Made by a program: the position numbers and the translations under genes
Notes under the pieces: generated by a model
What the model saw: the letters and a program-made list of their open reading frames with translations, nothing else
Database searches by the model: none
What the model was told of the DNA's origin: nothing
Shown here: positions 14,882-19,559 of the stretch, piece by piece
Layout: every line of letters begins with the position of its first letter
Numbering within the stretch: the stretch's first letter is position 1
NCBI RefSeq assembly: GCF_028736925.1
Contig: NZ_JAQZAT010000003.1
Span: 62,001 to 126,000, forward strand
Direction of reading: 5' to 3'
From: Flavivirga sp. 57AJ16
Lineage (GTDB): Bacteria > Bacteroidota > Bacteroidia > Flavobacteriales > Flavobacteriaceae
DNA length: 64,000 nt

Positions 14882-16792
14882 ATGACAAAAGGAAATATTA
14901 ATGTTTCGGTAGAGAATATCTTTCCTCTCATTAAAAAATTCTTGTACAGTGATCACGAAATCTTTTTACGTGAGCTAATTAGCAATGCTACAGATGCCAC
15001 TCTAAAACTAAAGCATTTAACAAATGTTGGCGACGCTAAGGTTGAATATGGTAACCCACAAATTGAAGTTAAGATCGATAAAGATGGTAAAAAACTTCAC
15101 ATTATAGATCAAGGTTTAGGGATGACCGCTGATGAAGTTGAAAAATATATCAACCAGGTAGCATTTTCCGGTGCCGAAGAGTTTTTAGACAAATACAAGG
15201 ATTCTGCTAAGGATTCTGGAATTATCGGGCATTTTGGTCTTGGTTTCTATTCTGCTTTTATGGTTGCTGAAAAAGTTGAGATTATCACAAAGTCTTATCA
15301 AGATGCTCCTGCAGCACATTGGACATGTGATGGCAGTCCAGAATTTACCCTTGAAGCTTCAGACAAAACAGATAGAGGTACAGAAATCATTCTACATATT
15401 GCAGAGGATTCTACAGAGTTTTTAGAAGAAGGACGTATTAAAGGCCTTCTTGAAAAGTACAACAAGTTTATGCCTATTCCAATTAAATTTGGAACTAAAG
15501 AGGTAAACGATCCAGACTTTACACCTAAAACCACAAAAGATAAAGACGGTAAAGAAACAACCGAACCCCATAAAAAAATAACTGTTGACAACATCATCAA
15601 CAATCCTAACCCAGCATGGACCAAACAGCCAGCAGATTTAGAGGATCAAGATTATAAGGACTTTTACCGTGAATTGTATCCTATGCAATTTGAAGAGCCT
15701 TTATTCAACATTCACCTAAATGTAGATTATCCGTTCAATTTAACGGGAATTTTATACTTCCCCAAAATGTCTAACGACATGCAAATCCAGAAGGATAAAA
15801 TTCAATTATATCAAAATCAGGTTTTTGTAACCGATAATGTTGAAGGTATTGTTCCTGAGTTTTTAACAATGCTTCGTGGTGTTATTGATTCTCCGGACAT
15901 CCCGTTAAATGTATCGCGTTCTTATTTACAGGCCGATGGTGCTGTAAAAAAGATTTCGTCTTACATCACCAGAAAAGTAGCCGATAAGTTAAAATCACTG
16001 TTTAACAATAGTCGTGAAGATTTTGAAACGAAATGGGACGATATTAAAATCGTGATTGAATACGGTATGCTTTCCGAAGAAAAATTCTTTGAAAAAGCAG
16101 ATGCTTTTGCATTGTATCCAACCGTTGATGGTACTTATTATACCTACGAAGAGCTATTCAATAAAATTAAAGCAAAACAAACCGATAAAGACGATAAATT
16201 AGTGATTCTTTACGCTTCAGATAAAGATGCACAGCACAGTTATATTGAATCTGCAAAAGCGAAAGGTTACGAAGTATTGTTGTTAGACTCTCCTATCGTA
16301 TCGCATTTAATACAAAAACTGGAATCTACCAAAGAAAACATCACGTTTGCACGTGTTGATGGGGACCATATTGATAATTTAATCAAGAAAGAAGAAACCA
16401 CCATTTCTAAATTAGATGAGGATCAGAAAAAGACTTTAGATGAGTTGTTAAAAGAAGTAATTCCTTCTGAAAAATTTATGGTACAACTAGAAGCTATGGA
16501 TAGCGATGCCTCGCCGTTTATTATTACGCAACCGGAATTTATGCGTCGCATGAAAGAAATGCAAGCTACAGGTGGCGGTGGTATGTTTGGTATGGGTAAC
16601 ATGCCAGAAATGTACAATTTGATAGTTAACACCAACTCTGCATTGGTTGGCGAGATTTTAAACACCAAAACCAAAAAGAAACAAGAGCGTTTAATCAATC
16701 AAAGTTTAGATTTGGCACGTTTATCCCAAGGGCTTTTAAAAGGGGAAGCGTTAACGAACTTCATTAAGCGTAGTTACGAGATGATAAAATAA
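14882..16792 (+). CDS. htpG: Molecular chaperone HtpG (Hsp90)
   Basis: A 636-residue bacterial Hsp90. The N-terminal GHKL ATPase is clear: FLRELISNATDATLKL, IIDQGLGMTADEV, and the lid region GHFGLGFYSAFMV. The middle domain has NVSRSYLQAD (Arg-containing gamma-phosphate sensor region), and the C-terminal dimerisation domain follows. As in other Bacteroidota, an insertion of acidic and basic residues lies near residues 205-235. Upstream at about 14770 is TGTCAGTTTGTCACA, an imperfect repeat that may be a stress-response control site, but this is a guess. A terminator follows at 16888. Confidence 0.95.
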   Translation: MTKGNINVSVENIFPLIKKFLYSDHEIFLRELISNATDATLKLKHLTNVGDAKVEYGNPQIEVKIDKDGKKLHIIDQGLGMTADEVEKYINQVAFSGAEEFLDKYKDSAKDSGIIGHFGLGFYSAFMVAEKVEIITKSYQDAPAAHWTCDGSPEFTLEASDKTDRGTEIILHIAEDSTEFLEEGRIKGLLEKYNKFMPIPIKFGTKEVNDPDFTPKTTKDKDGKETTEPHKKITVDNIINNPNPAWTKQPADLEDQDYKDFYRELYPMQFEEPLFNIHLNVDYPFNLTGILYFPKMSNDMQIQKDKIQLYQNQVFVTDNVEGIVPEFLTMLRGVIDSPDIPLNVSRSYLQADGAVKKISSYITRKVADKLKSLFNNSREDFETKWDDIKIVIEYGMLSEEKFFEKADAFALYPTVDGTYYTYEELFNKIKAKQTDKDDKLVILYASDKDAQHSYIESAKAKGYEVLLLDSPIVSHLIQKLESTKENITFARVDGDHIDNLIKKEETTISKLDEDQKKTLDELLKEVIPSEKFMVQLEAMDSDASPFIITQPEFMRRMKEMQATGGGGMFGMGNMPEMYNLIVNTNSALVGEILNTKTKKKQERLINQSLDLARLSQGLLKGEALTNFIKRSYEMIK

Positions 16793-16887
16793 ATTCCTGC
16801 GACCTGTGCTGAACTCGTTTCAGTAAGGCAGGAATTTCATGAGGTTATCTTAATCTCATAAAATTACTTTAAATTAATATAGATTTT

Positions 16888-16919: not shown

Positions 16920-16959
16920 GTTTAACACACATGTTAACTTTATAAAAATTCTCAAACCC

Positions 16960-17553
16960 GATCGCGCGGATTTGCACCTAAAATCCGTGCCCACTCCCCG
17001 ATAGCGCGGATTTGCAATCCGTGCCCACTCACCACTTACCCCTAACCCCCCCGATAGCGCGGATTTGCAACGTGTCCACTTACCCCTAAAAAATATGCAA
17101 CATAACAACATCAAGTTCACTATCTAAACTAGCATAATTCCTTGCTGAGCTAAAAACATAATCCTCTCGATCGCGCGGATTTGCAATCCGTGCCCACTCC
17201 CCTTAAAAAATATGCAACATAACAACATCTAGTTCACTATCTAAACTAGCATAATTCCTTGCTGAGCTAAAAACATAATCTTCCAGACCCGATCGCGCGG
17301 ATTTGCAATCCGTGCCCACTCCCCCTTAAAAAATATGCAACATAACAACATCAAGTTCACTATCTAAACTAGCATAATTCCTTGCTGAGCTAAAAACATA
17401 ATCCTCTCGATCGCGCGGATTTGCAATCCGTGCCCACTCCCTTAAAAAATATGCAACATAACAACATCAAGTTCACTATCTAAACTAGCATAATTCCTTG
17501 CTGAGCTAAAAACATAATCCTCTCGATCGCGCGGATTTGCAATCCGTGCCCAC
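16960..17553. repeat. REP / RAYT-tail tandem array
   Basis: Seven copies of a ~30-bp REP-like palindrome (core GCGCGGATTTGCAATCCGTGC, itself an inverted repeat) begin at 16960, 17000, 17053, 17169, 17291, 17409 and 17525. From the third copy onward they alternate with four near-identical ~80-bp segments (starting about 17086, 17202, 17325 and 17441) that are copies of the 3' end of the adjacent transposase gene, including its stop codon. The period is 116-122 bp. An eighth REP lies inverted on the far side of the gene at 18160-18195. The first three REPs are degenerate or lack the gene-tail spacer. Confidence 0.9.
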
Positions 17554-17559
17554 CCCCCC

Positions 17560-18114
17560 TTAAAAAATATGCAACATAACAACATCTAGTTCACTATCTA
17601 AACTGGCATAATTTCTTGCTGAGCTAAAAACATAATCTTCCGGATTCGAAACAATCTTATCCTTTACAGGATTGTTATGAATATAATCCAACTTCTGTTT
17701 TATAAATTTATTTGACGAGCATATTTCTGCATGGTAGCCATCTTGCCAGACCTTAAATTGCTGACTTCGCTTTAAATGTTCGCATGCCTTTTTGAAGTAA
17801 TCCAACATCCATTCCCTTCTACTTTCTGGGTAATTGGCAATGGTGTCTACGATTTTTTTGGAAGTGAATTTCTTAAAATCCCGCATAATATTCGATAGCA
17901 AGAAACCTTCCTTTGCTTTGCAAAGCATATGGATATGGCTGGGCATTATACAATAGGCATAGAGTTCCAGACCTTTATACTTTTGGCAATACCTAATAGC
18001 ATCTGTAATAACAAATTTTTGTTTTAATCTGGTAAACACATCTACCCAACCTACTGTAGTTATGGTTATAAAATAACCTGTGTCGGTCATTGTTGCTTTG
18101 TACTTTGTAGACAT
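17560..18114 (-). CDS. REP-associated tyrosine transposase (RAYT, Y1_Tnp family)
   Basis: A 184-residue single-strand transposase of the IS200-like HUH superfamily. The HUH motif is His60-x-His62 in CIMPSHIHML, and the catalytic Tyr is Tyr144 in KLDYIHNNPVKDKI. RAYTs act on REP palindromes by nicking single-stranded DNA and forming a 5'-phosphotyrosine link. The gene is intact. It is flanked by REPs pointing inwards from both sides (17525-17553 and 18160-18195), the expected arrangement for a REPtron-like unit. The last 26 codons are repeated four times downstream. The stop codon overlaps the boundary of the array. Confidence 0.93.
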   Translation of the reverse strand: MSTKYKATMTDTGYFITITTVGWVDVFTRLKQKFVITDAIRYCQKYKGLELYAYCIMPSHIHMLCKAKEGFLLSNIMRDFKKFTSKKIVDTIANYPESRREWMLDYFKKACEHLKRSQQFKVWQDGYHAEICSSNKFIKQKLDYIHNNPVKDKIVSNPEDYVFSSARNYASLDSELDVVMLHIF

Positions 18115-18159
18115 TCTCTGTTTTTTCTACAAAGTATAAAATTGTGAGCACATATAGTA

Positions 18160-18195
18160 GGGCACGGATTACAACCTTAAATCCGCGCTATCGGG
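18160..18195 (-). repeat. Inverted REP copy upstream of the RAYT gene
   Basis: GGGCACGGATT...AATCCGCGCTATCGGG is the reverse complement of the REP units at 16960-17553, with the variant spacer (ACAACCTTA) also seen in the first REP of the array. It marks the 5' side of the RAYT unit. Confidence 0.85.
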
Positions 18196-18459
18196 TCTGC
18201 GCTCAGCATAAACTAAAGTCGAAATGCTAATAAAAACTAGAACTCCAATTGGTCTTCGACTTTAGCCTGTCTTGAGCGCCCGCCTGCCGGACGGGCAGAA
18301 AGACGAAAGGCTCTGACTGACATTACGGCCTTAACTTAATGATATTGACCTAGTGTGAGCAATAAAAAACCTTCTTTCATACCCAAAAATCCAGTGTAAA
18401 AATCACTCGATTATAAAATGGAATTAATAATTTAGTTTTTTATACAAAACCTGTTATTC
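18196..18459. other. Repeat-rich spacer without a gene
   Basis: This stretch contains CTTTCGACT/AAGTCGAAAG-type dispersed repeat pieces (about 18200-18316) and a GCCCG..CGGGC hairpin near 18278-18297. No reading frame, RNA gene or promoter was recognised. Confidence 0.4.
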
Positions 18460-19012: not shown

Positions 19013-19144
19013 AAATCAGTGAATCGAAACTTATTCCCTATATAAAATCGTATACAAACACACTAGACACACCCGCAAATCAACTCACAAAAAAATTTTT
19101 TTAAACAAAAAAACACCCCTGACACACTATGACACAACCCCGTA

Positions 19145-19152
19145 TAACTTTG
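19145..19152 (+). promoter_or_regulatory. -7 box of the VOC gene promoter
   Basis: TAACTTTG matches the Bacteroidota TAnnTTTG consensus and lies 29 bp before the VOC start codon. No TTG is found at the usual upstream distance. Instead there is a TGACACACTATGACAC direct repeat (about 19120-19135) that could bind a regulator. Confidence 0.45.
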
Positions 19153-19181
19153 CATATAAGTTTAACAATTAAATTAAAAAA

Positions 19182-19559
19182 ATGAAAAATGCAATTAACT
19201 GGTTTGAAATTCCAGTAAAAGATTATGAGAGAGCCAAACAGTTTTACGTTACTGTTATTGGGACAGAAATTATTGACCACCCTATGCCAGAAGACCATAT
19301 AAAGTATGGTGTCTTTGCTTACGATATGGAAAACAAAGGTGTTGGGGGTGCTATTATCCAGGGAAAAGGACAAAACCCAACAGCAGATGGTGCGACTATC
19401 TATTTAAATGGTGGAGACGACTTAAGTACGCCTCTTTCTAGAGTAGAGCCTAATGGTGGTAAAATACTCATGCCCAAAACAGATATCGACGAAAATGGGT
19501 TCATTGCTCAGTTCTTAGATACCGAAGGTAATCGAGTAGCATTACATTCTATGATGTAA
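19182..19559 (+). CDS. VOC family protein (glyoxalase/bleomycin-resistance fold)
   Basis: A 125-residue single VOC protein beginning MKNAINWFEIPVKDYERAK, the typical first beta-alpha unit. It continues with GGAIIQGKGQNPTADGATIY and ends with FIAQFLDTEGNRVALHSM, where the Glu and His are candidate metal ligands. Family members include metal-dependent lyases, dioxygenases and antibiotic-binding proteins; the substrate is unknown. Followed 186 bp later by a WYL regulator on the same strand. Confidence 0.88.
   Translation: MKNAINWFEIPVKDYERAKQFYVTVIGTEIIDHPMPEDHIKYGVFAYDMENKGVGGAIIQGKGQNPTADGATIYLNGGDDLSTPLSRVEPNGGKILMPKTDIDENGFIAQFLDTEGNRVALHSMM

Follow-up and report, generated by a model that had tools for sequence, protein, structure and literature searches.

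Tandem copies of a RAYT gene end between REPs in Flavivirga sp. 57AJ16 and a possible origin in one-sided, REP-anchored duplication

The stretch of 64,000 nucleotides from Flavivirga sp. 57AJ16 analysed in this study, hereafter the window, contains a gene for a REP-associated tyrosine transposase (RAYT) whose 3' end recurs downstream of the intact gene in regular alternation with REPs. This arrangement raises the question of how such copies are made and of whether the gene tail is itself a functional part of the copied unit. REPs are thought to be mobilised by RAYTs, and the genomic products of this activity are difficult to resolve in genomes with hundreds of REPs. At low counts of REP cores, which range from 9 to 22 in the four flavobacterial genomes that were counted, the breakpoints of tandem products at related loci can often be read to the base. 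The comparison with related genomes suggests that the outer edge of the REP hairpin would be the fixed point of copying and that the gene tail may be a mere passenger. The features of the locus are listed below in the direction of transcription of the RAYT gene.

18160-18195, plus strand: REP on the 5' side of the gene, in opposite orientation to those downstream, 5' foot with GTAG
17560-18114, minus strand: RAYT gene, 184 aa, HIH and YIHNNP motifs in its translation
17520-17559, minus strand: REP directly after the RAYT stop, core 17530-17548, 3' edge GATCGAGAG
17442-17519, minus strand: tail unit 1, 25 codons and stop, with AGG, GCT and CTT
17404-17441, minus strand: REP, core 17414-17432
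17326-17403, minus strand: tail unit 2, identical to unit 1
17281-17325, minus strand: REP, core 17296-17314, edge GATCGGGTCTG followed by GAA
17203-17280, minus strand: tail unit 3, with the CTA of the gene and an initial GAA codon retained
17164-17202, minus strand: REP, core 17174-17192
17086-17163, minus strand: tail unit 4, stop codon TAG
17050-17085 (also given to 17086), minus strand: variant REP past the last tail unit
16997-17026, minus strand: REP without a tail, core 17005-17023
16957-16992 (also given to 16993), minus strand: terminal REP with a loop insertion

The encoded protein matches the Pfam family Y1_Tnp and scores 109.2 bits against NF047646 (NCBIfam 'REP-associated tyrosine transposase', cutoff 80), which places it in this family, and it reaches 31 bits with the IS200 model NF033573, under the cutoff of 55. 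It shows a weak match to the TnpA_REP structure 4er8 (E=0.0014), to which its HIH and YIHNNP sequences align as the HUH motif and tyrosine motif; the catalytic tyrosine is presumably the one assigned in the literature. REPs in inverted orientation are found on both sides of the gene, with one upstream and seven, five of them with exact cores and two variant, following downstream in a single orientation. Compared to the GTAG/GTGG of the family, the 5' foot of the upstream REP reads GTAGGGCACGG and that of the array REPs mostly GAGTGGGCACGG. Directly outside the 5' REP, positions 18199-18223 and 18255-18279 form a 25-nt inverted repeat with 80% complementarity. On the far side of the array lies a plus-strand gene (14882-16792) that we read as a probable htpG from its translation, and just past it, at about 16793-16842, there is a short dispersed repeat with many matches of about 43 bp in Flavivirga genomes. 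Both in the window genome and in F. jejuensis (loci L045 and L364, C6), the RAYT gene is located between the htpG-like gene and a gene that matches window positions 19076-19486, in opposite orientations relative to these neighbours, as if the REP-flanked segment had flipped.

The array itself is as proposed in the preliminary description: the last 26 codons of the gene are present in four copies, which alternate with REPs of the same orientation at a period of 116-122 bp and occupy the four gaps between the first five downstream REPs. The first three spacings are 116, 118 and 122, the fourth, which leads to the variant REP, is again 116, and TRF assigns a period of 116 with 5.0 copies. Ahead of each 25-codon copy, a Glu codon completes the 26; three units have it as GAG, at the junction with the REP, and one has GAA. 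With 94-100% identity of the array pieces to the query unit, chance is not an issue for the repeat itself. The genome is a draft of 4.92 Mb in 52 contigs, in which the array is found inside a contig of 319 kb, and its units differ in sequence from one another, which bears on the question of an assembly artefact. Searches on the protein and DNA level revealed no further tail copy elsewhere in the window genome. The whole genome contains 9 REP cores at up to one mismatch, a count that misses more diverged REPs, compared to the more than 100 copies per genome of classical REP families (PMC2817692). Since the array REPs share one orientation, they also lack the alternation of BIMEs, and the dispersed unit of two inverted REPs that is characteristic of REPINs and MITEs is absent from the window array and present in F. 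aquimarina (C59 and C64).

The differences between the units and the gene are, as initially described, all synonymous. They comprise AGA/AGG and GCC/GCT in all four units and CTA/CTT and GAA/GAG in three of the four, besides a change of the stop from TAA to TAG in one. From this pattern it had been proposed that the tails were copied from functional alleles under selection. Random changes in the window tail are expected to be synonymous in 19-28% of cases and, by our own arithmetic, three to four independent synonymous changes would occur with p of about 0.1-2%, but the number of events is tiny, as the differing sites are common to several units. The three inner sites read AGA, GCT and CTT in both Flavivirga sister genes, and thus only the change from AGA to AGG has clearly arisen in the units. 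The GCC would be a change on the side of the gene or a homoplasy, as it is also found in the gene of a Seonamhaeicola MAG, which carries TTA at the respective leucine site, and unit 3 has its CTA in common with the gene. Selection cannot be demonstrated from as few as one to three changes in the copies. The opposite pattern is found in the 25 tail copies at 12 other loci (counted from the 13 given, with the copy at L124 outside the filter), which together show 25 synonymous and 43 non-synonymous substitutions and three gaps, tail copies that share a locus not being independent. Their synonymous fraction of 0.37, which includes changes on the side of the gene, compares to a neutral expectation of 0.19-0.28 for the window tail. 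Non-synonymous changes, which had been named beforehand as the observation that would speak against selection, are thus common, and the sister-gene alignment in conjunction with the tail copies at other loci has led us to reject selection on the tails.

The recurrence of gene ends is not confined to the window. A self-comparison of 98 RAYT loci, of which 80 (out of 162) originate from one search and 18 from other searches, revealed partial 3'-end copies of at least 20 nt at 16 loci, with head copies, whole-gene copies or combinations of head and tail copies at some of the 98. A tail with its REP in the absence of the gene, an arrangement whose existence had been suggested for examination, was found on C23 of F. 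jejuensis, where the solo tail contains several amino-acid changes. In light of this solo unit and of the recurrence at 16 of 98 loci, the tail copies plausibly record RAYT activity. Their composition varies. They begin at many different points of the gene and extend to about 60 codons in another genome. In F. segetis (L105), 11 REPs and 10 extra tail units with several different starts follow the gene, and the REP-side edge is always CGG or CGGG. Other units carry the end of a 278-codon open frame (L112) or of another open frame (L134) ahead of the tail and REP, and those of a second F. segetis array (L169), located about 300 kb away from the single RAYT detected in this genome, consist of about 124 bp of host DNA and a REP, with nothing matching the RAYT gene. 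The mirror image of the tail pattern, on the side of the gene head, is found at L119 and in F. jejuensis. The idea that the right end requires the tail was rejected in view of these variable starts and tail-less units. Thus, of the initial proposal that units of tail and REP are a substrate or by-product of the RAYT, the recurrence of 3'-end copies at RAYT loci has held, and the tail as an essential part has not.

Besides these tandem products, F. aquimarina contains two elements of 216 bp, 96% identical and 1.7 kb apart in different flanks, with the order inverted REP, head, tail, REP, and a third element with a different internal deletion, and such two-ended elements suggest that the two REPs can move as the ends of one unit. 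The derivative on C64 retains only few tail codons. The search for exact tandem-REP patterns across the family, with 0 and 1 of 397 genomes, was uninformative as this REP core seldom occurs in genomes that are drawn evenly, and among 22 chosen genomes the pattern was found in four, with 10 of the 11 matches located at already known RAYT loci. Several loci have a more intricate organization. At L045 of F. jejuensis (about 1377-2513), the RAYT gene contains an internal stop and shares an altered stretch with a tandem upstream copy of REP and head that also contains stops. A second tandem REP cluster (L168; G000:C5:102108-102693), about 6 kb from another RAYT, has periods of 153, 153 and 261 and a more complex unit that contains another inverted repeat. 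In F. aquimarina (G005), the end of C83 and the start of C114 (L048 and L046) break inside a RAYT gene and overlap exactly over 140 bp, which is the expected outcome where a repeat, possibly a tandem head copy, has stopped the assembly.

To describe the breakpoints without recourse to REPs, two-copy tandem duplications (period 35-519, identity at least 85%) were called by a procedure that assumes no REP sequence. It detected 34 duplications in 594 kb from 115 loci (set 1) and 24 in 390 kb from 90 loci of Flavobacterium (set 2, which in part re-fetched genomes of set 1 and from which events already seen were dropped), compared to one in the 400 kb of 20 random regions of 20 kb. The corresponding rates per 100 kb are 5.7 and 6.2 versus 0.25 (p=4e-7 and 6e-7). 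Tandem duplications thus occur more than 20 times as often at the RAYT loci of Flavobacterium and relatives as in random regions (58 versus 1), an excess that rests on a single control event and that, with control regions drawn from a subset of the same genomes and unmatched for intergenic or REP content, mixes effects of RAYT and REP; it could originate from REP hairpins rather than the enzyme. In Chryseobacterium, four events in 317 kb of 70 loci correspond to a rate of 1.3, which is not significantly above the control (p=0.12).

A pronounced feature of these duplications concerns the position of one of their ends. This end is no more than 2 nt away from a CGGG (right end) or a CCCG (left end) in 13 of 34 cases in set 1 (0.56 expected, Poisson p 5e-14) and in 8 of 24 in set 2 (0.51 expected, Poisson p 7e-8), hence in 21 of 58 compared to 1.1 expected, with the remaining 37 found off this strict edge. 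The one control event is not at the edge (0.01 expected), nor are the four from Chryseobacterium (0.06 expected), where among these few events the edge rule was not confirmed, and where one event (L294) stops at ACATCG, the REP position that corresponds to the edge. The window-type REP core, at up to three mismatches, is contained in 8 of the 21 strict units, and the remaining 13 terminate in different sequences that share the CGGG edge. The overlap at the junction does not exceed 2 nt in 19 of the 21 anchored events, with 7 nt at L002 and 6 nt at L128, and re-priming driven by microhomology, which was our first model, was dropped since most anchored junctions show little overlap. The window junctions have drifted and are not clean, with GAGAG and GGGTCTGGAA variants, and the window is thus not among the 21 strict cases.

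The duplications also show a polarity. In 71 terminal pairs, which are the last two REPs of a cluster, obtained from 291 loci, only the 5' flank is duplicated in 24 cases, only the 3' flank in 5, both in 7 and neither in 35. Homology stops 6-9 nt past the core in 17 of the 24 pairs with 5' duplication only, and in tandem pairs of this kind the repeat often ends about 8 nt beyond the 19-nt core, at ..CTATCGGG. Several of the pairs that share the 3' flank have, in our own reading, long compound REPs with a CGGG-like edge further out. Folding of four REP stretches gave the expected hairpin in two, with the edge 7 nt outside of its base, and no simple hairpin in the other two, and the folded stretches are not much more stable than shuffled sequences (z -0.4 to -1.5).

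We thus consider it just about probable that the array has originated from a one-sided tandem duplication that is anchored at the REP and initiated by RAYT cutting. The copied unit would comprise a REP plus whatever adjoins it on the 5' side, with the other breakpoint varying between RAYT tail, RAYT head and host DNA. In this scheme, the RAYT would act as a single-strand nuclease of the HUH-Y type similar to that of IS200/IS605 elements. The REP hairpin with its 3' foot of 8 nt would serve as the right end, with cutting at a single exact position, following ..CTATCGGG, and a second cut would be made on the 5' side of the REP, with its position only loosely defined. The excised single-stranded piece would then be inserted beside its own REP edge or onto the sister strand, thus leaving an extra copy of 5' flank and REP after the existing one. 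Since a REP is located just behind the RAYT stop, the 5' flank would usually be the end of this gene, and where a REP is found next to another sequence, that sequence would be copied instead. Unequal crossing-over could later expand the units. The RAYT is the obvious candidate for the nuclease, as it adjoins the array and as members of its family have been shown to cut single strands of REPs (PMC8266576), and we infer from the related loci that it makes the cuts, in the order described, and that the window array arose likewise.

The main rival to cutting by RAYT is slippage triggered by the hairpin, where a nascent REP folds, the polymerase pauses and the 3' end re-anneals upstream so that tail and REP are copied again, with no involvement of the RAYT. 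We consider this mechanism unlikely, although it would account for the fixed edge on the REP side, the variable start, the direct tandem copies and the presence of any 5' flank, and a REP array distant from a RAYT gene does exist (L169). The recurrent 3' edge of the REP, the little microhomology in 19 of 21 anchored junctions and the presence of the same edge in the 13 of 21 units without a window-type core, whose own hairpins were not folded, are better described by an enzyme that cuts at a set site than by a polymerase that slips at a hairpin, and an edge 7 nt past the base of a hairpin that, where it forms, is little more stable than shuffled sequences speaks against the latter. As the origin of the array, an ordinary tandem duplication with a coincidental REP edge, later subjected to unequal crossing-over or gene conversion, appears quite improbable, as it leaves unexplained why 21 of 58 breakpoints are at CGGG or CCCG with 1.1 expected and why one-sided duplications of the 5' flank outnumber those of the 3' flank by 24 to 5. 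Such recombination is nevertheless likely to have contributed to later expansion, since units 1 and 2 are identical and unit 4 differs from both in its stop only, and slippage and recombination probably both add to changes in copy number.

The possibility that the RAYT acts on the tail and REP as its actual substrate, the tail being kept by copying from selected functional alleles or by a requirement in cis, we regard as highly improbable. The synonymous nature of all differences in the window and the solo unit in F. jejuensis would be in line with it, but of the 68 substitutions counted in other tail copies 43 change the amino acid, the tails start at variable positions with lengths of up to about 60 codons, and neither the tail-less units of host DNA nor the C64 derivative of F. 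aquimarina with its few tail codons would be expected.

The capture of rayt 3' ends between REPs was already known from gammaproteobacteria, where Nunvar et al. (2010) have described such ends inside BIMEs in four cases beside rayt genes and have proposed a RAYT-driven growth of these BIMEs (PMC2817692). As in the window, the segment between REPs consists of the rayt 3' end and the sequence up to the downstream REP, whereas the gammaproteobacterial REPs alternate in genomes that are usually REP-rich, in contrast to the few REPs of one orientation found here (PMC2817692). The units of the related loci end at the 3' edge of the REP, a rule that the accessible text of that report does not state (PMC2817692). 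Tandem REPs reiterated with flanking DNA of variable length, resembling those described here, were reported by Di Nocera et al. (2013), the accessible part of whose account gives neither one-sidedness nor the position of breakpoints nor copied RAYT tails (PMC3733652), and tandem REP arrays are also known from Pseudomonas (Bertels and Rainey, 2011; PMC3116915). In Bacteroidetes, Quentin et al. (2018) have defined the TnpA_Y1 subclass 2.6 with atypical structures (PMC6006769). As far as described there, this subclass shares with the window RAYT its phylum, its size (about 179 aa), the WQ and YIH[QN]NP motifs and flanking secondary structures with copies in the genome, and it differs in the HUH motif, which is NH[LIV]H compared to SHIH, the likeness being one of description and not of phylogeny (PMC6006769). 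Within the part of the open-licence literature on RAYTs and REPs that was covered, a one-sided rule with a fixed edge was not found, and the open-licence literature yielded no work on RAYTs in Flavobacterium.

The family of IS200/IS605 elements combines an HUH-Y enzyme with subterminal hairpins and non-autonomous derivatives. The internally deleted copies of F. aquimarina, which retain both ends, resemble the latter, whereas the low copy number and the frequent tandem products with a single REP as end distinguish the system described here. As a broader and rather doubtful proposal, RAYTs of Flavobacteriaceae may act as local DNA amplifiers that cut after CGGG and at a loose upstream site, perhaps following GA, and re-insert the single-stranded piece in tandem. 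If true, such RAYTs would duplicate the ends of their own genes and also whatever host sequence happens to be located 5' of a REP, which points to a source of small local duplications that include the ends of host genes. The proposal makes testable predictions on the position of cleavage (after CGGG), on polarity (5' flank only) and perhaps on the second site (after GA).

This second site is reflected in the sequences that precede the variable unit start. An A at position -1 of the donor site had been predicted and is found in 10 of 21 strict events, which is not significant (p=0.13), and the dinucleotide GA is found in 7 of 21 (p=7e-5 with a background of 5.3%). A start after GA or AA was noted on set 1 before set 2 was fetched, and GA alone was stressed after the listing of set 2 had been seen. 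In set 1, GA or AA precedes 4 of 13 strict events (p=0.22), and in set 2 it precedes 5 of 8 (p=0.008), with GA alone in 4 of 8 (p=5e-4); the Chryseobacterium loci (set 3) provide zero strict events. GA as a second cut site is thus a lead only, and the unsupportive count in set 1, together with the hairpin obtained in only half of the folded stretches, slightly lowers our confidence in the duplication by RAYT cutting. At three loci (L079, L096 and L210), the variable end is found at nearly one place inside the REP, between CCGC and GCTATC in two cases and between GCGC and TATC in one, and short compound REP feet are the result.
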